From assembly GCA_018816605.1 (NCBI GenBank), contig JAHIVS010000635.1, positions 1 through 7,172 on the forward strand: a DNA stretch of 7,172 nucleotides, written 5' to 3'. Shown here in pieces: positions 1 to 7,172 of the stretch (position 1 is its first letter; each line of letters starts with the position of its first letter). Origin of the DNA: Pseudomonadota bacterium (GTDB lineage Bacteria; Desulfobacterota; Desulfobacteria; Desulfobacterales; Desulfobacteraceae). The translations under genes were made by a program, and so were the position numbers. The notes under the pieces are model-generated. The model saw only the letters and a program-made list of their open reading frames with translations, did no database searches and was not told the origin of the DNA.

Positions 1-2
1 CC

Positions 3-338
3 ATACTTGAAAAATACCGGATGACCGCCTCAGCCGTCCCCCTTTCCACAGTGCTTCATTTGAAAACCGGCATCTCCTACCTGGAGAACGATTGCTTTCT
101 GGCCTTTGGAGAATTTTTAACCAAACCTGGGTTTGAAAATTTTTTACTTCTGCCCGTTGACCCCCAGGAGGCATATGCCGCCAATTGTGTCTGGATCAAT
201 GACCGGATACTCGTGCCCGAAGGCTTTCCTAAAACACAAAAAATGATTGAAGAAAAAGGATATGCCACAGTGCCGGTGGATGTGTCCGAATTTAGAAAAC
301 TGGACGGCGGGTTAAGCTGTCTTTCACTCCGATTCTGA
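3..338 (+). CDS. DDAH/arginine deiminase-superfamily guanidino hydrolase, C-terminal part (5' end outside window)
   Basis: This is the C-terminal ~111 residues of a dimethylarginine dimethylaminohydrolase-type enzyme, a cytosolic hydrolase that releases an amine from guanidino substrates such as methylarginines through a covalent Cys intermediate. The frame is open to the left edge (ILEKYR precedes the first Met at 21), so that Met is not the start and roughly 150 residues lie upstream. The family's catalytic His is visible in VLHLKTG, and the nucleophile Cys in the closing motif DGGLSCLSLRF. They are 87 residues apart, matching the spacing I recall for the Pseudomonas enzyme (His162/Cys249). 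The gene ends with TGA and converges on the ferredoxin gene. The family assignment is firm. The exact substrate (methylarginine, arginine or another guanidine) cannot be read from this fragment. Confidence 0.85.
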   Translation: MLEKYRMTASAVPLSTVLHLKTGISYLENDCFLAFGEFLTKPGFENFLLLPVDPQEAYAANCVWINDRILVPEGFPKTQKMIEEKGYATVPVDVSEFRKLDGGLSCLSLRF

Positions 339-357
339 TTCTGCTGTATCGCCCCCG

Positions 358-375
358 GTCTGATCCGGATCAGAC
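358..375. repeat. 18-bp perfect palindrome between convergent genes
   Basis: GTCTGATCCGGATCAGAC equals its own reverse complement. It lies 20 nt after the stop of the DDAH-family gene and 14 nt before the ferredoxin terminator stem. It could be a protein-binding site or a short hairpin (7-bp stem with a CCGG loop) at the 3' end of the upstream transcript. No T-tract follows on the plus strand, so it is not a classical terminator. Confidence 0.6.
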
Positions 376-389
376 ATGGCGCGGAAATA

Positions 390-425
390 AAACTGCCGGA
401 TCTGTTTTCACAGATCCGGCAGTTT
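390..425 (-). terminator. Rho-independent terminator of the ferredoxin gene
   Basis: Arms 390-404 and 411-425 are a perfect 15-bp inverted repeat (core CTGCCGGATCTG) with a 6-nt loop. Read on the minus strand, the stem ends in TTT and is followed by TATTT, the U-rich tail expected of an intrinsic terminator 24 nt after the ferredoxin stop. On the plus strand only three T residues close the stem and GGACAAAA follows, so termination of the opposing DDAH-family transcript would be weaker. Confidence 0.8.
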
Positions 426-448
426 GGACAAAAAAGAACAAGGACGGA

Positions 449-637
449 TCAGTCTTCTTCTACGACAATCGCATCTTCTTCACAAACTTCAACACAGCTT
501 TCACAGCCCATGCACTCTTCTGCATTGACCGGAACTGATTTTCCATCTTCCATCTCAAATACTTCCACAGGGCATACGTCTACACATTCTTCGCAACCAA
601 CACATTTTGCTTCGTCAACAATAGGATTAAACGCCAT
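449..637 (-). CDS. 2[4Fe-4S] ferredoxin, 62 aa
   Basis: This is a small cytosolic electron carrier of the bacterial 2[4Fe-4S] type. Two cluster motifs are complete: C12-x2-C15-x2-C18-x3-C22 followed by Pro, and C42-x2-C45-x2-C48-x3-C52 followed by Glu. By family precedent, the first three Cys of one motif and the last Cys of the other bind each cluster. The protein is very acidic, with a tail rich in Glu and Asp, and its length is normal for the family. The start is supported by AAGGAG at 647-652, 9 nt upstream of the ATG. The gene has its own promoter candidates upstream and a strong terminator downstream, so it is probably monocistronic despite following the cysteine synthase fusion unit on the same strand. 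Its redox partner is not indicated by the context. Confidence 0.95.
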   Translation of the reverse strand: MAFNPIVDEAKCVGCEECVDVCPVEVFEMEDGKSVPVNAEECMGCESCVEVCEEDAIVVEED

Positions 638-667
638 TTTAATAATCTCCTTAATAAATTAAATAGT

Positions 668-741
668 ATTATAAAGTCACTTTTTAAATTTAAACTTTGG
701 TTTAAAAAACGCATTTATAACATGTCATTCGGTAAAATCAA
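668..741 (-). promoter_or_regulatory. Promoter region of the ferredoxin gene (two candidates)
   Basis: Candidate 1, read on the minus strand: -35 TTGATT (736-741), 16-bp spacer, -10 TATAAA (714-719) preceded by TGT, which resembles an extended -10. This would give a leader of about 70 nt. Candidate 2: a perfect TATAAT at 668-673 without a convincing -35, which would give a leader of about 24 nt. Both are sequence matches only. The region is strongly AT-rich, so chance matches are possible. Confidence 0.5.
689..706. repeat. Inverted repeat TTTAAAC-TTTG-GTTTAAA, possible operator
   Basis: Seven-base arms (689-695 and 700-706) are perfectly complementary around a 4-nt centre. The repeat lies just downstream of the -10 of candidate promoter 1 and upstream of the TATAAT of candidate 2, a position where a repressor or activator could act on the ferredoxin gene. 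No regulator is identified. Confidence 0.4.
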
Positions 742-756
742 GTTTTTTATGATTTT
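734..756 (-). other. Weak AT-rich stem-loop at the end of the 318-aa gene
   Basis: AAAATCA (734-740) and TGATTTT (750-756) can pair around a 9-nt loop. The hairpin overlaps the stop codon of the 318-residue gene and the -35 of the ferredoxin promoter. A 7-bp stem almost entirely of A-T pairs without a clear U-tract is a poor terminator, so readthrough into the ferredoxin gene cannot be excluded. Confidence 0.25.
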
Positions 757-1703
757 AGTTGTACCAGACAGACGGCAATCGACTGACCTGGGGTATTAAA
801 AAACGCCTTGGTGCACCCTTCCGGAAAAAGGCACACTTTAATCTGACCACGCAAAAGACAGGTATCATCCGCTTCCGGGAGCGCGACTCCGGAAGAACTT
901 TTGCTCAAAATTGTTTCTTTTAAAAATTGAAAAACATCCTGCTGCCACCTGCCTTTGTTCACACAATCTTTTTCATGCACTTTTATGGAATCAATGTCAA
1001 GGGCATTTATCACACCTTCTGAACCAGAGACCATATGGTCCAGAACAGCAGGACTTGTGGTGACCAAAAGGGGCATGCCCCCGGGGCCTTCCAACACCCC
1101 TTTTTGACGGGCATAACTGAACCAGGCCACAAGTCTTTCCCGGGTCATTCGCCTGCCGGGATCCACGGTATCGGGCCCAGGTTTTTCATACTTTTTTCCC
1201 AAGGATTCTCCGGTCAATTCAGAAAAAAGAAGCGACCGGGTCTGTTCCAGTGCCGCCAGTTCATCCTCAATTCCTTCATTCTGGACATCCGATAATTGGG
1301 CAAATTTCAATAACAGCAACGGATCCTGAACCGCTTTTTTCTGGTCAACACTTGTCTGGTTTCTTTTTGTTCCGCTTCTGATCTGGGAGCGGATACTGGG
1401 AATATCGGTATCCTCAATAAAATATGGCTGGTCTTTGAGCAGGGATTTGAGATTTTTTTCATTGCCCCGGTGAAGCGTTGCCCAGTCCAGGTAAGCACGT
1501 GCCTGGTTTTCTGCCCGCCCAAGGTCTTGTGCCAAAGGAAATACAGGCTGGAGAACCTTTTTTTCTGTCATTTGTCCCAGCAGGGGGTCTTGGGTAAAAT
1601 CTGCCACCAGGGGTAAAAAAGTGATGCTATGAAAAAATGCAGATACAATTTTCAATTGTTCTTTACTGATATGGGAAAATGGAAAAAACAGAGTTTCTAT
1701 CAT
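747..1703 (-). CDS. Uncharacterised 318-aa protein, second gene of the cysteine synthase fusion unit
   Basis: I do not recognise a family. The protein has no signal peptide and no membrane segment, so it is probably cytosolic. It opens with an aromatic and hydrophobic stretch (FFPFSHIS, residues 6-13; FLPL, 29-32). A charged, probably helical middle follows (about 60-160), then a basic Pro/Gly segment (PGPDTVDPGRRMTRER, 175-190). All five cysteines lie in the last 72 residues (C247, C282, C291, C297, C312), including VCLFPEGCTKAFF. The spacing does not match a standard Fe-S or zinc motif. The ATG is 8 nt after the stop of the fusion gene. Its Shine-Dalgarno-like AAGGTG (1715-1720) lies inside the fusion's last codons, implying cotranscription and translational coupling. 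A link to cysteine or sulfur metabolism is suggested only by this position. It is probably a lineage-specific conserved protein. Confidence 0.8.
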   Translation of the reverse strand: MIETLFFPFSHISKEQLKIVSAFFHSITFLPLVADFTQDPLLGQMTEKKVLQPVFPLAQDLGRAENQARAYLDWATLHRGNEKNLKSLLKDQPYFIEDTDIPSIRSQIRSGTKRNQTSVDQKKAVQDPLLLLKFAQLSDVQNEGIEDELAALEQTRSLLFSELTGESLGKKYEKPGPDTVDPGRRMTRERLVAWFSYARQKGVLEGPGGMPLLVTTSPAVLDHMVSGSEGVINALDIDSIKVHEKDCVNKGRWQQDVFQFLKETILSKSSSGVALPEADDTCLLRGQIKVCLFPEGCTKAFFNTPGQSIAVCLVQLKS

Positions 1704-1711
1704 ACGTATGG

Positions 1712-4027
1712 TTACACCTTTTTATCATGAACATGAATGCCCAGGTCAACAAGTCGATCCCGGATCCGGTCGGCCAGGATCCAGTCATTTTTCGCTCTGG
1801 CCTCTTCGCGTTCTGCAATAAGAGCCCGGACAGTATCGGAATATTCCATTTTACCGCTAAAATCAAATATTTTCAGCATAGCATCCACTTCCCTGAAACA
1901 TTCCAGCAACCGCCGGGCAGATACACAATTGATTTGATTCAGATTTATCAGACGATTTATTTTTTTAACACCCAGAAGCAGACAGGAGATCACATCGGAA
2001 ACCTTCAAGTCATCTGCCATTGCCGACAAAACTCCCTGTCGGATATCATAGATCAATTGATCATTGTTTTCACTGGCATCCCCACCGGCAGTTTGATCCC
2101 CTGCTTCCCCGGTGTCCATCCGGGTGATGGCATCCAGGGTTCGTATACACCGATTTAATTTGGCAAGGGTGAGTTTGGCGTCCCTCAATGCCTGAACGGA
2201 CAATACCAGCTGCTTTCTATAATGACCGAAAATCAGCCAGAACCGGATGGTTTTCAACTCCCATCCCTGCCGGACGAGGGTATCCAGATTTATCTGTTCA
2301 ATGCTGGACGCTTCCAGGGATCCGTCATATTGAACAGGGTCACAATGCATCCACACGTTGGCAAGGGTGGATCCGGTCGCAGCCCTGGCAATGGCAATCT
2401 CATTTTCATGGTGGGGGAATACAAGCTCCATGCTTCCTGTGTGGATATCAAACTGCTGGCCCAGATATCGCATGGCAATGGCCGAACACTGCAGATGAAG
2501 GGAGGGTCTGACATTGCCCCATTCGGTCTTTATCCCCACCCCCCTTTTGAGCTCTGACAGGCGAACCCGCTTTAACAGCGTAAAATCCTTTGGGTTTCGT
2601 TTTTCGTACTCATCCAGGTCAACGGTTGCCCCATGCTTGATCTTGTCCAGATCGACCCGTGACAGATGACCATACTCGGACTGGCTTGCAATATCAAAAT
2701 AGACGGAATGCAATTTCTCATAGGCATGGTGGCGGTTCAAAAGGGTTCTTGCCAGCTCCGTCATTTCGGAAAAATGATCTGACACCCTGGGAAAGGCCTG
2801 GGCCTGTCGGATACCCAATGCAGCAAGATCCGCTCTGAAGGATTCAATGTGGGGAAGAACAAAGGCATCAAGGGATTGCCCCGTCTCTTCAGCACCCTGT
2901 ATGGTTTTGTCATCATAATCGGTAATATTGATAACATGGTTCACATCAAATTGGCAAAACTCAAGGTACCGGACCAGAAGATCAGTAAAAACAAAGCGCC
3001 GAAGCAAGCCGATATGCTGGCGCTGATGAACCGTTGGGCCGCAGGTATAAATTCCGATTTTATCTTCCTCGATGGGCGCAAACAGCTCTTTTTCCTTGGA
3101 CAGGGTGTTGTATAGCTTCAGGTCACTTTTTTTTTTAACCGAAAAAAGAGCGGTGGAAAGATATCGCTCCCCGCTGTCGGGAAAGATGGCCACCACAACC
3201 CCTTTTTCAAGGGTCCGGGCTTCTTCGATGGCGGCAGCCATGGCAGCCCCGCTGCTCATGCCCACAAACAGGCCTTCTGCCCTTGCCAATTGCCTGGCGG
3301 TTTCAAAAGCCTTTTCATCATCCACACGGATGGTGTTGTCCAGTCTGGCTTTATTAAAAATTCCAGGGGTATAGGATTCCTTCATATTTTTCAGACCCTG
3401 AATCTTGTGCCCCAGATAGGGTTCTGCACAGATGATCCTGATCTTGGGGTCAAGCTCTTTGAGATACCGGGACAGGCCCATGAGGGTACCCGAAGTGCCG
3501 ATGGTTGCAACAACACTTGTAACCCGGTTTTTGATCTGGGCCATAATTTCAGGCCCGGTTGTATAATAGTGGGCTTTCCAGTTTGCTTCATTGTTGTATT
3601 GATCCGTGAGAAAATACTGATGGGGATTCTCCCTGGCCAGTCGGTAGGCCTCCTCGATGGCACCATCAGACCCCAGGTGTTTGGGCGTCAGTATGATCTG
3701 GGCTCCCCGGGCCCGCAATATCCGCTTTCTTTCCTCACTGGCATTTTCGGCCATTGTCAGTGCAAGCTTATATCCCTTCACCGCACAGATCATGGCAAGT
3801 CCGATCCCGGTGTTGCCGCTGGTGGCTTCAATCACAGTTTTGTCCGGGGAGAGATGTCCCGATTCTTCTGCAGCCGTGATCATATACAAAGCAGACCTGT
3901 CTTTAATAGACCCGCCCGGATTCATATATTCCAGCTTGGCAAAAATCTTCACCCCGGGCACAGGATTCAAGCGTTTTATTTCAACAACAGGGGTGTTGCC
4001 GATGGATGCAATTATGGAAGTGGCCAT
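1712..4027 (-). CDS. cysK-cysS: Fusion of PLP-dependent cysteine synthase with a cysteinyl-tRNA-synthetase-like domain, 771 aa
   Basis: Residues 1-296 form a complete fold-type-II cysteine synthase, CysM-like in wording. The PLP lysine is K42 in NPGGSIKDR, the substrate loop is TSGNTG (69-74), the phosphate loop is GTSGT (177-181), and the closing motif is PDSGERYLST (283-292). A very short linker (SVKKKS) leads to a CysRS-like region (302-771), about as long as E. coli CysRS. It includes the Rossmann core, GHYRKQL (601-607) and a well-kept C-terminal helix pair. Zinc ligands are present (C329, C514, H539, E543). HIGH is HIGL (338-341) and the KMSKS position reads LEASS (571-575), so aminoacylation is doubtful. 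The N-terminal half should make cysteine from an activated serine and a sulfur donor. The RBS AAGGA is 5 nt before the ATG. The gene is divergent from lptD and coupled to the next gene. Database pipelines may call it plain cysteine-tRNA ligase. Confidence 0.9.
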   Translation of the reverse strand: MATSIIASIGNTPVVEIKRLNPVPGVKIFAKLEYMNPGGSIKDRSALYMITAAEESGHLSPDKTVIEATSGNTGIGLAMICAVKGYKLALTMAENASEERKRILRARGAQIILTPKHLGSDGAIEEAYRLARENPHQYFLTDQYNNEANWKAHYYTTGPEIMAQIKNRVTSVVATIGTSGTLMGLSRYLKELDPKIRIICAEPYLGHKIQGLKNMKESYTPGIFNKARLDNTIRVDDEKAFETARQLARAEGLFVGMSSGAAMAAAIEEARTLEKGVVVAIFPDSGERYLSTALFSVKKKSDLKLYNTLSKEKELFAPIEEDKIGIYTCGPTVHQRQHIGLLRRFVFTDLLVRYLEFCQFDVNHVINITDYDDKTIQGAEETGQSLDAFVLPHIESFRADLAALGIRQAQAFPRVSDHFSEMTELARTLLNRHHAYEKLHSVYFDIASQSEYGHLSRVDLDKIKHGATVDLDEYEKRNPKDFTLLKRVRLSELKRGVGIKTEWGNVRPSLHLQCSAIAMRYLGQQFDIHTGSMELVFPHHENEIAIARAATGSTLANVWMHCDPVQYDGSLEASSIEQINLDTLVRQGWELKTIRFWLIFGHYRKQLVLSVQALRDAKLTLAKLNRCIRTLDAITRMDTGEAGDQTAGGDASENNDQLIYDIRQGVLSAMADDLKVSDVISCLLLGVKKINRLINLNQINCVSARRLLECFREVDAMLKIFDFSGKMEYSDTVRALIAEREEARAKNDWILADRIRDRLVDLGIHVHDKKV
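3127..3136 (-). other. A10 homopolymer at the cysteine synthase/CysRS junction, candidate slippage site
   Basis: On the coding (minus) strand the junction reads GTT AAA AAA AAA AGT GAC, encoding VKKKSD (residues 297-302). One extra A in the mRNA, or a -1 ribosomal shift, gives AAG TGA: four lysines then stop, a 301-residue protein. One A fewer, or a +1 shift, gives GTG ACC TGA: Val-Thr then stop, 302 residues. Either product is a normal-length cysteine synthase. Slippage itself is an inference; A-runs such as those in dnaX genes are the precedent. Confidence 0.45.
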
Positions 4028-4032
4028 TCATA

Positions 4033-4038
4033 TCCTTT
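4033..4038 (-). promoter_or_regulatory. Ribosome binding site of the fusion gene
   Basis: AAAGGA on the minus strand lies 5 nt before the ATG at 4025-4027. It decides between this ATG and the out-of-frame ATG four bases earlier. The reading that starts MATSIIASIGNTP also aligns with the normal N-terminus of cysteine synthases. Confidence 0.75.
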
Positions 4039-4043
4039 CAACT

Positions 4044-4077
4044 CCGGCAGTCCGGATCACCTAGGATTTACTGCCGG
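4044..4077 (-). other. Leader stem-loop upstream of the fusion gene
   Basis: CCGGCAGT (4044-4051) and ACTGCCGG (4070-4077) are perfectly complementary around an 18-nt loop that contains CCTAGG. In the minus-strand transcript this GC-rich hairpin ends about 5 nt before the Shine-Dalgarno sequence, so it could influence translation start. No U-tract follows on either strand, so it is not a terminator. No cysteine-codon leader peptide is visible. Confidence 0.4.
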
Positions 4078-4121
4078 CTCTTTAAGCTTATTCTGACTTG
4101 ACTTTTACACTATAAGATGGC

Positions 4122-4150
4122 TTTATACAGTAATTTTAACTGATGTGCAA
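4122..4150 (-). promoter_or_regulatory. Sigma70-type promoter of the cysteine synthase fusion unit
   Basis: On the minus strand, -35 TTGCAC (4145-4150) and -10 TATAAA (4122-4127) are separated by an ideal 17 bp. Transcription would start near 4115 and give a leader of about 88 nt that contains the stem-loop at 4044-4077. The -35 lies only 18 nt upstream of the lptD start codon, so regulation of the two divergent units may be linked. Confidence 0.6.
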
Positions 4151-4167
4151 TTTATTACTGGACAGCC

Positions 4168-6384
4168 ATGTTTTGTTTGTTTTCCAAGAGAAAACTGCCG
4201 CTGGTGGCGGCAGTTGTGTTTTTTTGTCATATGATTTCACTCCCGGTTGCTGCCGGAGCCCTTCCTGAAAATCCAAAGGAGATCTCCTGGCATATTTCAG
4301 CCGCCATGGTGACATATGACAATGAACGCCAGTTGTATATTGCCGAAGATGACGTGGTGATCACCGGTGGTGCCACACGCCTGGAAGCTGATTATGTGGA
4401 GTTTTCCAACAAGACAAAGGATGCCTTTGCCCAGGGCAATGTCCTGCTTCTTTCCGGCCAGGATTCCATCACCTGCAATGCAATGCAGATCAATCTTTTA
4501 ACAGAAAAAGGGACCATTAATAAAGGGACCATTTTTATCCAGGAAAACCATTTCTATATCAGCGGCGAAAACATTAAAAAAACAGGGGAATTCACCTATA
4601 ATGCAGACAAGGGATCCATCACCTCCTGCAGCGGCGAAACCCCTGACTGGAAAATTACCGGTAAAAATATCAAGGTAACCATTGAAGGATATGGCAGTGC
4701 GAACCATGCGGTCCTGTGGGCCCAGAAAATTCCCGGCATCTATTCTCCCTATATTTCCTTTCCCGTAAAACGCAAGCGCCAGACCGGCCTTCTGAACCCC
4801 CGGCTCACCAATTCCGACCGAAAGGGGGTTGAATACGAACAGCCCTTGTTTATCGCCATTTCAAAAAATATGGACGCAACCCTTTCGGCCGATTATATGT
4901 CTGACCGCGGCATCAAGCTGGGCGGTGAATTCAGGTATGTCTTAAACCAAACCGCTAAAGGAGCCATGCTTTTAGATTATCTGGAAGACACAAAGCGTGA
5001 TGACGGCACAGTGGATACCCAAAATTATAGTTATGCCGGCACCCTCCAGCGGACCGACACAGAGCGGTACTGGTTTCGAATGAAACACGACCAGGACCTG
5101 CCCCGCGGAGTCACGGCCAAACTGGACCTGGATATTGCCAGTGATGAAGACTACCTGCTTGAATTCAGGGACGGGTTCACAGGCTTTGATGCAACCAACC
5201 GATATTTTGAAGAGACCTTTGGCAGGAGCCTGGATGAATATGATGACGCCACCCGGACCAACAGTCTGACCATCAGCAAGTATTGGCCCAATTATAGTTT
5301 TAACGCCCAGACGCTCTGGTATGACAATATTACCGCCCGCCAGGGGAATATGCCAGACACCACCCTGCAAACCCTGCCAAGCTTTGAGTTTGATGGGGCC
5401 AGGCAGCAGATCGGTGCTTCTGATTTTTATTACACCCTGGACTCGGAATTCAGATCCTTTTACCGCCAGGATACCACCGCGACCCTGGTCAAGGGGCAGA
5501 GGGCAGATGTGTATCCCAAAGTCTATCTTCCCATGCGGATTGCCAAAGCCTTTTTCCTTGAACCCTATGTCGGCACCCGGGCAACCGCCTGGCACACGGA
5601 TAATTTCACGGACATCAACGGCATGGACGATAATTTCAGAACCCGCGCCACCTATGACATGGGCGCCCGGCTCTCCACCTCGCTCAACCGGGTTTTCACC
5701 CCGAACAACAACTTTGCGGACAAGATCCGGCACACCCTGGTGCCCATGGTTGAATATGCCTTTCAGCCCAATGTAATCCAGAATGATCTGCCATACTTTG
5801 ACGAACTTGACACGCTTGCCGAAAAAAATCTTGTGACCTGGTCACTGACCAATAGTTTTGTTTCCAGAAACCTTGTTGACAACCCGGACGGAACAACATC
5901 AAATCAATACAAAGAATTTGTCTGGACAAGATTATACCAGAGCTATGATCTTGCCGTGGCAAGGGATGACCGATCAAAGCCGTGGTCCAATATCACCCTT
6001 GAGAGTGAACTCAACCCCTTTCAATACTTTACCCTGGATGCCGATATTGACTGGTCCCCCTACAATACCCATTTTGAAAGGATGAACCTGGGGGCTACCC
6101 TTTACGACAAGCGGGGAGATTCCATCCATACTGCCTACCGATATACGATCGCCTCATCGGAAACCTGGTATACCCGATTCACTGTTACGCTTACAGATCA
6201 AATGACGGCCTATTATTCATTTGAAAAAGACCTGAAAACAAACAAAAATATTGAAGACAGGGTCGGTGTCACCTTTAGCAAGGATTGCTGGGGCATGGGC
6301 CTTGAATATAAAGAGACGTCTGCAGACAAAAGCGTTGCCTTCCTGATAACCCTTCGGGGAATTGGAGACTTTGGCAACAAATGA
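4168..6384 (+). CDS. lptD: LPS-assembly outer membrane protein LptD, 738 aa
   Basis: LptD forms the outer-membrane barrel that, plugged by lipoprotein LptE, inserts LPS into the outer leaflet. A signal peptide is visible: basic KRK at 7-9, hydrophobic to about 27, and likely cleavage after AGA (29-31). Residues ~40-170 form the periplasmic LptA-like beta-jellyroll, with repeated short strands such as YIAEDDVVITGGATRLEADY. SCSGETPDWKITG (153-165) and SPYISFPVKRKRQTGLLNP (193-211) are typical of LptD at the entry to the barrel, which fills the rest up to GIGDFG near the C-terminus. Length is close to the family norm. Mature cysteines are C103, C154 and C707. C154 and C707 match positions of the inter-domain disulfide of E. 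coli LptD (C173-C725). The Shine-Dalgarno match is weak (GGA at 4160-4162), but no better in-frame start exists before the stop at 4141. No strong plus-strand promoter was found; TTGACT at 4098-4103 is the best -35. Confidence 0.92.
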   Translation: MFCLFSKRKLPLVAAVVFFCHMISLPVAAGALPENPKEISWHISAAMVTYDNERQLYIAEDDVVITGGATRLEADYVEFSNKTKDAFAQGNVLLLSGQDSITCNAMQINLLTEKGTINKGTIFIQENHFYISGENIKKTGEFTYNADKGSITSCSGETPDWKITGKNIKVTIEGYGSANHAVLWAQKIPGIYSPYISFPVKRKRQTGLLNPRLTNSDRKGVEYEQPLFIAISKNMDATLSADYMSDRGIKLGGEFRYVLNQTAKGAMLLDYLEDTKRDDGTVDTQNYSYAGTLQRTDTERYWFRMKHDQDLPRGVTAKLDLDIASDEDYLLEFRDGFTGFDATNRYFEETFGRSLDEYDDATRTNSLTISKYWPNYSFNAQTLWYDNITARQGNMPDTTLQTLPSFEFDGARQQIGASDFYYTLDSEFRSFYRQDTTATLVKGQRADVYPKVYLPMRIAKAFFLEPYVGTRATAWHTDNFTDINGMDDNFRTRATYDMGARLSTSLNRVFTPNNNFADKIRHTLVPMVEYAFQPNVIQNDLPYFDELDTLAEKNLVTWSLTNSFVSRNLVDNPDGTTSNQYKEFVWTRLYQSYDLAVARDDRSKPWSNITLESELNPFQYFTLDADIDWSPYNTHFERMNLGATLYDKRGDSIHTAYRYTIASSETWYTRFTVTLTDQMTAYYSFEKDLKTNKNIEDRVGVTFSKDCWGMGLEYKETSADKSVAFLITLRGIGDFGNK

Positions 6385-6905
6385 CCAAGCACTTATACTG
6401 GTATGCGCTTTTGACCCGGAGCAACTTTGAACAAACCGTCTATGGCTCCATTACCGGGAAAAAAATAGAGGCGTTTTTGCCCAAGGCCAGAAGACAAAGC
6501 CTGCGGAAAGACCGGAAATTAATGATCGAAATCCCTCTGTTCCCCGGGTATTTATTTGTCCGCACCACCATTGAGCCCGCTGACCAGCTGAACATCCTTA
6601 AAACAACAGGTGCTGTCAGGATATTGGGAAATCCCCGGGGACCGGTTTCCATCCCCGATTCCCAGATAGACGCGTTGAAATTGCTGACCAGTGCCAAGGT
6701 TGATTTAATATCTGGCAAGTCAATCCTATTGAAAAAAGGCGACCCTGTGATGGTTATAGAGGGTCCCATGGCGGGATTAAAAGGAGAGTTCACCCGACAC
6801 AAAGGCTGTGGCCGTGTCATTGTTAAAATCGATATTCTGGGGCAGTATGCCGGGGTGGAAATGGATCTGGAGAGTGTTGAAAAAATTCCCGACTTCCTAT
6901 CATAA
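6381..6905 (+). CDS. NusG-paralogue transcription antiterminator (RfaH/UpxY-like), 174 aa
   Basis: NusG-family proteins bind the RNA polymerase clamp and suppress pausing or termination. Specialised paralogues act on particular long operons, often for LPS, capsule or exopolysaccharide. The NGN domain spans about 5-105 (YWYALLTRSNFEQ at the N-terminus and the signature PLFPGYLFVR at 52-61). The KOW domain follows from about 118 (KKGDPVMVIEGPMAGLKGEF) to 169. The protein is about as long as housekeeping NusG and RfaH. Its start ATG overlaps the lptD stop as ATGA with no good Shine-Dalgarno of its own, so translation is probably coupled to lptD. It is unlikely to be housekeeping nusG, which normally sits with secE and the rplK/rplA ribosomal protein genes. 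The NGN wording (FLPKARRQS..., LFPGYLFVR) is that of the UpxY/RfaH-like group. The target operon is not visible in this window. Confidence 0.88.
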   Translation: MTKHLYWYALLTRSNFEQTVYGSITGKKIEAFLPKARRQSLRKDRKLMIEIPLFPGYLFVRTTIEPADQLNILKTTGAVRILGNPRGPVSIPDSQIDALKLLTSAKVDLISGKSILLKKGDPVMVIEGPMAGLKGEFTRHKGCGRVIVKIDILGQYAGVEMDLESVEKIPDFLS

Positions 6906-6909
6906 CCCC

Positions 6910-6938
6910 TTGACTTTTTATTAAATCTTGATTAAAAC
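6910..6938 (+). promoter_or_regulatory. Candidate promoter of the IHF/HU-family gene
   Basis: TTGACT (6910-6915) and TAAAAC (6933-6938) are separated by 17 bp in the AT-rich gap after the antiterminator gene. The leader would be about 44 nt and would include the T8 run at 6961-6968. No terminator hairpin is visible between the two genes, so cotranscription with lptD is also possible. Confidence 0.45.
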
Positions 6939-6987
6939 CCAGGTAAAAATTGAGAGCTTGTTTTTTTTAAAATGCACATGAGGATCT

Positions 6988-7172
6988 ATGAATAAACTTG
7001 AATTGATTTCCACGTTAAAGGAAAGGGCAAGCCTGACCAAGGCAGAGGCTGCGGATGTAATTAGAATTTTTTTCGATTCTTTGGCAGAGTCATTTATAAA
7101 AGGGGAAAGGGTTGAAATCAGAGGGTTGTGCAGTTTTCATATCAAGGAATATAAAAGCTATACCGGAAGAAA
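6988..7172 (+). CDS. IHF/HU-family DNA-binding protein, N-terminal part (3' end outside window)
   Basis: The first 61 residues of a bacterial histone-like protein are present, and the frame is still open at the window edge. The start MNKLELISTLKERASLTKAE forms the usual two dimerisation helices. RVEIRGLCSFHIKEYKSYTGR (41-61) is the beta-saddle leading to the DNA-binding arm. The conserved NPKTG arm, whose proline intercalates into DNA, would come directly after the cut. Such proteins bend DNA and assist transcription, replication and recombination. RGLCSF and the following KEYKSYTGR resemble IHF-type sequences of deltaproteobacteria more than HU, but the subunit (alpha, beta or a homodimeric form) cannot be decided. 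GAGGA ends 3 nt before the ATG, a short but usable Shine-Dalgarno spacing. Upstream ATGs at 6972 and 6978 are out of frame. Confidence 0.88.
   Translation, partial: MNKLELISTLKERASLTKAEAADVIRIFFDSLAESFIKGERVEIRGLCSFHIKEYKSYTGR

Follow-up and report, generated by a model that had tools for sequence, protein, structure and literature searches.

What does a cysteinyl-tRNA synthetase (CysRS)-like domain do behind a cysteine synthase when its own motifs for activating cysteine with ATP have disappeared? The question is raised by a gene on a 7,172-nucleotide stretch of Desulfobacteraceae DNA (GenBank assembly GCA_018816605.1, contig JAHIVS010000635.1, positions 1 to 7,172, forward strand; here called the window). 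A first-pass annotation, made from the letters alone, had read the product as a fusion with a CysRS half that lost KMSKS and part of HIGH but kept its zinc cysteine pocket, and had suggested a domain that binds cysteine and perhaps tRNA. Here, we follow this protein through its relatives and through the genomes that encode it.

A cysteine synthase with a CysRS-like half

The 771-residue frame matches PF00291 (residues 8 to 284), PF01406 (316 to 618), and PF23493 (729 to 770). Its AF2 model has a mean pLDDT of 86.5, and residues 302 to 771 of the model structurally match the tRNA complex 1u0b. The part behind the cysteine synthase indeed resembles CysRS over its full length; LEASS stands where KMSKS is expected and HIGL where HIGH is, and all residue and nucleotide coordinates of the first-pass annotation were reproduced on the window translation (Table 1). 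Chance or assembly error was considered as the source of the motif loss and rejected, as close relatives share it. The loss is real, since the 771-aa frame is open and none of the 37 proteins of the window clade (distinct sequences with an identity above 60% to the window protein, which is itself counted) has KMSxS, or H..H/H..N at HIGH.

Table 1. Positions of the fusion gene, its main features, and neighboring frames in the window
Feature	Position	Strand	Basis or remark
Fusion gene, 771 aa: PLP cysteine synthase and CysRS-like pseudo-synthetase	1712..4027	-	Open frame, Pfam, AF2
PLP cysteine synthase half, aa 1-299, CysM/CysK type	3131..4027	-	Lys42, TSGNTG/GTSGT retained
CysRS-like half, aa 302-771	1715..3124	-	
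Predicted zinc ligand C329 (E. coli C28)	3041..3043	-	Alignment
HIGL at HIGH position, aa 338-341	3005..3016	-	Alignment to E. coli CysRS
Predicted zinc ligand C514 (E. coli C209)	2486..2488	-	Alignment
TGSME at GGGSD position, aa 530-534	2426..2440	-	TGSRE in most of the window clade
Predicted zinc ligand H539 (E. coli H234)	2411..2413	-	Alignment
Predicted zinc ligand E543 (E. coli E238)	2399..2401	-	Alignment
LEASS at KMSKS position, aa 571-575	2303..2317	-	Alignment to E. coli CysRS
Anticodon-domain signature R740, R744, D753, R756, D768	1724..1810	-	Kept in 127/130 fusions, 21/21 standalone CysRS
Downstream ORF, 318 aa	747..1703	-	Starts 8 bp past the fusion; no family match
Dimethylargininase-like C-terminal part	3..338	+	Runs off the window edge
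LptD-like outer-membrane protein	4168..6384	+	
NusG paralogue	6381..6905	+	

The PLP half reaches 371 bits with the cysKM subfamily model TIGR01136 (cut-off, 344.15) and does not reach the equivalog cut-offs for cysM or cysK. Its PLP lysine, TSGNTG and GTSGT loops, and SSG motif are all present, and 13 positions that we take to have catalytic roles (K42, S70-G74, Q143, G177, T178, G180, T181, S258, and G260) are identical in 130/130 distinct fusions. Every checked residue of a working cysteine synthase is found in this half, which is thus predicted to synthesize cysteine. Its substrate loop, HKIQGLKNMKES, is unlike that of either E. coli CysM or CysK; the LKNM loop of the fusion presumably resembles M. 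tuberculosis CysM, which would suggest use of O-phosphoserine.

The 318-aa ORF behind the fusion likely shares an operon with it. We found no match for this ORF in Pfam or NCBIfam at an E value of 0.001 or in PHROGs at 0.1, and Foldseek, given its AF2 model (mean pLDDT, 80.4), matched no solved structure at E ≤ 0.001. In 57 of the 76 full-length loci (from the best 80 of 176), an ORF of at least 200 aa lies close behind the fusion, and in 54 of these 57 it belongs to the same 318-aa family, with a 4-base overlap in 19 (earliest-start rule); the other 19 loci have no qualifying ORF, some because the contig ends. For this family, 116 proteins were found, that of the window included; they are called hypothetical where named and come from Desulfobacter-type bacteria, where the family may be part of the fusion's system as a candidate partner. 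Elsewhere around the gene, the LptD-like protein is encoded beside the fusion in 44 of the best 80 (of 176) loci, and the NusG paralogue, which scores 123 bits against an UpxY antiterminator cut-off of 100, in 36 of the best 80. Some of ten loci have thymidylate-kinase-like or glnB/glnD-like genes upstream (named by eye); since the upstream side differs among loci, it offers no functional clue. Within the fusion gene neighborhood examined, nothing pointed to regulation.

Distribution of the fusion and its genomic background

The best 80 of 176 GTDB-genome loci encoding a relative were used, and 76 of these 80 contain a full-length fusion frame. Four loci without such a frame (L034, L058, L059, and L070) were left out, as was L196, which has a match only up to residue 584; L022 and L213 (at the start) and L046 (at the end) were included though slightly cut. 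Record titles of the loci name Desulfobacter-type taxa, "Deltaproteobacteria," and "Proteobacteria," with one Myxococcales bin (L079). Together with partial proteins labeled Hyphomicrobiales and Planctomycetota, this bin is at odds with a purely Desulfobacterota range. In a sample of 148 genomes belonging to the same phylum as Desulfobacter latus, the fusion is encoded in at least 57, by hand count of CysRS-half matches in frames of at least 700 aa. Of these 57 fusions, 56 passed the test for full or near-full length and, together with the 76 loci and the window, give 133 proteins, 130 of them distinct.

All 66 fusion representatives fall into one clade both in the CysRS-half tree (SH-aLRT, 100; against 20 standalone CysRS) and in the PLP-half tree (SH-aLRT, 98; against 18 standalone synthases), both trees being quick ones and EcCysM forming a long branch in the latter. 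One clade for both halves is consistent with a single fusion event. The CysRS-like half is under purifying selection: of the 40 pairs highest in similarity, 39 gave a dN/dS value (Nei-Gojobori), and these range from 0.025 to 0.217. Between the window and its closest relative, L034, dN/dS is about 0.10 (dN, 0.022; dS, 0.216), a comparison covering residues 302 to 469 only. In most window-clade pairs among those listed, selection on the CysRS half is somewhat weaker than on the PLP half.

The first-pass annotation had left room for the fusion to be the essential synthetase of its host. A canonical CysRS with HIGH/HIGN and KMSKS/KMAKS is encoded elsewhere in 17 of the 18 genomes of a first set, and in full length with its motifs in five of the eight genomes of a second, including that of the closest relative (G165). 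The two sets have G011 in common and hold 25 distinct genomes, 22 of which thus contain a full-length canonical cysS. For these 22, the fusion is rejected as the sole essential synthetase. A further genome (G166) contains a canonical cysS as two contig-end fragments; none was found in the remaining two, G011 and G168, which are MAGs given without completeness. Two genomes contain a second, divergent type of standalone CysRS with HIGN and KMAKS (L098 and L100), and in G015 a divergent HIGN/KMAKS CysRS is the only standalone CysRS found.

Standalone CysK-type synthases score over cut-off in 14/17 and 8/8 genomes, or 22 of the 25 distinct ones, and most of these genomes therefore have another route to cysteine besides the fusion. 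At most three could depend on the fusion as their sole cysteine synthase: in G001 (Desulfobacter latus) and G004, no other protein matched cysKM, and in G018 the second match is a weak one of 218 bits. A serine acetyltransferase-like gene is present in 14/17 genomes, 13 times beside cysK, with 157 to 167 bits and in all cases below the curated cut-off; the D. latus protein of this kind likewise scores below the cut-offs of its models. The SepRS/SepCysS pathway was rejected, with SepRS and SepCysS over cut-off in 0/24 fusion-bearing genomes, where weak matches occurred.

Adenylation motifs, zinc ligands, and the anticodon-binding domain

Alignment to E. coli CysRS bears out the earlier reading of the adenylation site, in which LEASS replaces KMSKS, HIGL replaces HIGH, and TGSME replaces GGGSD; KTIQ at residues 374 to 377 was reproduced as well. 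The stretch from WMH (559-561) to GHYR (601-604) had been described as aligning without gaps; such a fit onto E. coli residues 254 to 299 is possible, with 14/46 positions identical, but multiple alignments place small gaps at the loop, and KMSKS is absent both ways. Across the window clade, KMSxS and HIGH-like motifs (H..H or H..N) are each present in 0/37 proteins, so that both ATP motifs are gone from the whole clade and the proposed loss of cysteine activation by ATP is well supported at the level of motifs. The window protein almost certainly cannot form cysteinyl-adenylate by the normal route.

Intact KMSKS in homologues had been named as a sign that the window holds a single decayed copy. 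We observe KMSxS in 15/130 distinct fusions, in the form KMSRS, and a HIGH-like motif in 6/130, these six combining KMSRS with HLGN; none of the 15 belongs to the window clade, and they sit mostly on early tree branches. A single decayed copy is nevertheless rejected, since the degenerate state itself is conserved over many species, with 130 distinct fusions and low dN/dS. The window scores 331 bits with the NCBIfam cysS equivalog TIGR00435, under the cut-off of 340, and the fusions of two close relatives slightly exceed it (346.5 and 344.3 bits). These slight passes can explain the "cysteine--tRNA ligase" labels, which, like "cysteinyl-tRNA synthetase," are found on some fusions and are probably wrong for most members.

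The six with KMSRS and HLGN (L117, L118, L121, L199, L200, and L205) also have the zinc C/C/H residues and are possibly true bifunctional cysteine synthase-CysRS enzymes; all four zinc ligands are present in L117, L118, and L121, and the E238 equivalent is changed in L199, L200, and L205. L189, L190, and L191 are highly degenerate, having lost HIGH, KMSKS, and both zinc cysteines, with the anticodon signature present. On the tree, KMSKS, HIGH, and the zinc triad require 4, 3, and 3 parsimony changes, respectively, counts that give no direction and whose trait columns stayed in the alignment behind the tree. We infer as the likely history that a competent cysteine synthase-CysRS fusion came first and then lost its adenylation site, with tRNA recognition kept.

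The zinc ligands claimed for the window protein are present, each aligning with its counterpart in E. coli K-12 CysRS (L081), and Leu510 does stand at the position of W205. All four predicted ligands (C/C/H/E) are found in 37/37 window-clade proteins and 97/130 fusions overall, and the C/C/H triad in 114/130; in the window clade, the CysRS-like half is a predicted zinc binder. Around them, the pocket of the window clade is remodeled, with W205 changed to Leu and E208 to Gln in 37/37 and GGGSD altered. The complete retention of the ligands in this clade suggests that the old cysteine pocket is important too.

The anticodon domain is represented in the window protein both by its PF23493 match and by a signature of five charged residues, equivalent to E. 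coli R423, R427, D436, R439, and D451. The signature is kept in 37/37 window-clade proteins and in 16/16 fusions that have neither KMSKS nor the zinc triad; its three exceptions among all fusions are one sequence cut at the end and two with R427K. As this conservation was first noticed by eye, we then tested it without hand-picked residues. A set of 21 standalone CysRS (the E. coli enzyme and 20 encoded in the sampled genomes, hence mostly of the same phylum) shares one residue at each of 79 positions, all of which were scored for retention across 57 KMSKS-less fusion representatives. With approximate domain borders, mean retention is 0.99 in the anticodon domain (5/5 positions at 0.98 or above), compared to 0.76 in the connective peptide, 0.72 in Rossmann-N, 0.66 in the helical bundle (3 positions), 0.62 in Rossmann-C, and 0.48 in the KMSKS/stem-contact region. 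The chance of all five anticodon positions falling within the 26 best-retained (26 being hand-counted) is 0.003. Many other columns of the anticodon domain vary widely among fusions, which argues for function over fold.

In E. coli CysRS, the five signature residues reportedly contact and read the GCA anticodon (structure paper of Hauenstein, 2004). In the open-access literature searched, we found no support for anticodon contact by these residues, and they could be structural in part. Several CysRS-invariant positions outside the ATP motifs have been lost as well (for example, retention of R168, 0.02; W184, 0.00; W194, 0.05; G201, 0.00; Q241, 0.02), which calls for caution about the acceptor-stem side, where contacts to tRNA parts beyond the anticodon may be gone. 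Taken as it is, the most consistently kept feature of the family points to tRNA(Cys) binding over cysteine binding, and we regard tRNA binding by the CysRS-like half as reasonably probable.

Candidate roles and known counterparts

Our preferred reading, to which we give somewhat less than even confidence, is that the CysRS-like half acts as a pseudo-synthetase that binds tRNA(Cys) and thereby regulates or positions the cysteine synthase joined to it. The PLP half would make cysteine, and the CysRS-like half would form no cysteinyl-adenylate yet hold tRNA(Cys) via its GCA anticodon. In the window clade, a zinc ion would sit in the old cysteine pocket. tRNA(Cys), probably uncharged and perhaps thiol-modulated at the zinc, would then regulate or position the synthase, so that cysteine output would follow the charging state of tRNA(Cys). 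This reading is favored because the anticodon-reading end is kept most consistently and the window clade has its zinc ligands. A wider version, in which a cysteine synthase gated by tRNA(Cys) forms a protein-level counterpart of the T-box across Desulfobacterota and the near-intact members represent a surviving bifunctional ancestral state, is possible but more doubtful.

The zinc ligands, kept in 37/37 of the window clade and 97/130 overall, also lend themselves to a sensor without tRNA, in which free cysteine at the zinc pocket would feedback-regulate the PLP half as in the precedent of HisZ (excerpts of PMC9437257). However, the zinc set is incomplete in 33/130 fusions, against an anticodon signature in 127/130, and the pocket carries W205L and E208Q throughout the window clade. 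Such a sensor would moreover need no anticodon domain, a part that seems to be missing from MshC, a ligase paralogous to CysRS. We consider a cysteine sensor unlikely, and from the earlier proposal of binding to cysteine, and perhaps tRNA, the zinc ligands of the window clade are upheld, whereas the order that puts cysteine first is not. It is quite unlikely, too, that the CysRS half is a ligand-free structural remnant serving only the stability, oligomerization, or folding of the PLP half. The deep branching of the fusion speaks for such a role, as do many retained positions whose part is probably that of a scaffold; against it, charged residues are selectively retained in an otherwise variable domain matching tRNA recognition, and strong purifying selection extends across about 470 aa.

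Continued catalysis on tRNA(Cys), by a slow synthetase with replaced motifs or through SepCysS-like PLP action on a tRNA-held amino acid, appears very improbable. It would suit the six members with KMSRS, HLGN, and C/C/H, three of them with all four ligands, and tRNA-dependent cysteine synthesis is known from some archaea and bacteria (excerpts of PMC5424206). Against it, the window clade is without KMSKS and has a disrupted HIGH, a canonical copy is encoded in the genome of the closest relative, and SepRS/SepCysS are over cut-off in none of the 24 fusion-bearing genomes. The PLP half also retains the TSGNTG loop, which in OASS structures holds a free carboxylate.

If the tRNA(Cys)-responsive reading is true, a bacterial metabolic enzyme would use a built-in pseudo-synthetase to read whether the tRNA for its own amino acid is charged. 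To our knowledge, no bacterial amino-acid synthase has been established to be coupled directly, at the protein level and within one polypeptide, to the cognate tRNA; known links between synthase and tRNA rely on transcription, on a separate subunit as in HisZ, or on a kinase as in Gcn2. In the parts available of the open-access literature searched, we found no description of a cysteine synthase-CysRS fusion. Within the fusion family, synthetase halves grade from near-intact to fully degenerate with the tRNA-reading end kept, which makes the family a natural experiment in the origin of a pseudo-synthetase.

Compared to E. coli CysS (1u0b, 1li7), the fusion has no KMSKS, a disrupted HIGH, and an altered GGGSD, and it differs from bacterial CysRS in sitting behind a cysteine synthase in genomes that, in 22/25 cases, also encode the canonical enzyme. 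With CysM and CysK it shares the cysKM pass and the complete set of checked catalytic residues, and it adds the C-terminal pseudo-CysRS. MshC is the cysteine ligase of mycothiol synthesis. The window scores 153.9 bits with the MshC model TIGR03447, under the cut-off of 485.1. That family model has 411 positions, and residue 412 of 3c8z aligns at residue 722 of the fusion model, an endpoint that alone proves little, as some CysRS crystal chains end near there too; MshC, an ATP-dependent ligase (excerpts of PMC9437257), thus appears to end before the anticodon domain that the fusion has.

The proposed mechanism has precedents in systems in which a synthetase-like domain controls another enzyme. 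HisRS is class II, with a fold unrelated to that of CysRS, and SepCysS belongs to a different PLP family than the PLP half of the fusion. HisZ, a HisRS paralogue without adenylation activity, regulates HisG (excerpts of PMC9437257), and Gcn2 is activated by uncharged tRNA on a HisRS-related domain (PMC4335047). Of HisZ-type traits, the fusion shows motif loss and a covalent link to a biosynthetic enzyme; HisZ is instead a subunit of the HisG complex, and the kinase Gcn2 acts on translation. SepRS/SepCysS likewise couples tRNA(Cys) with cysteine synthesis (excerpts of PMC5424206), but with another charging enzyme and with no matches over cut-off in the genomes searched. CysRS* of Desulfobacterales (selC*/selB*) resembles the fusion in being an additional CysRS paralogue of that order; as described in excerpts of PMC9437257 and PMC7609411, it has no anticodon domain, is active, and charges the selC* tRNA. 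On that description, the fusion is its reverse, with the anticodon domain kept and the catalytic motifs lost.
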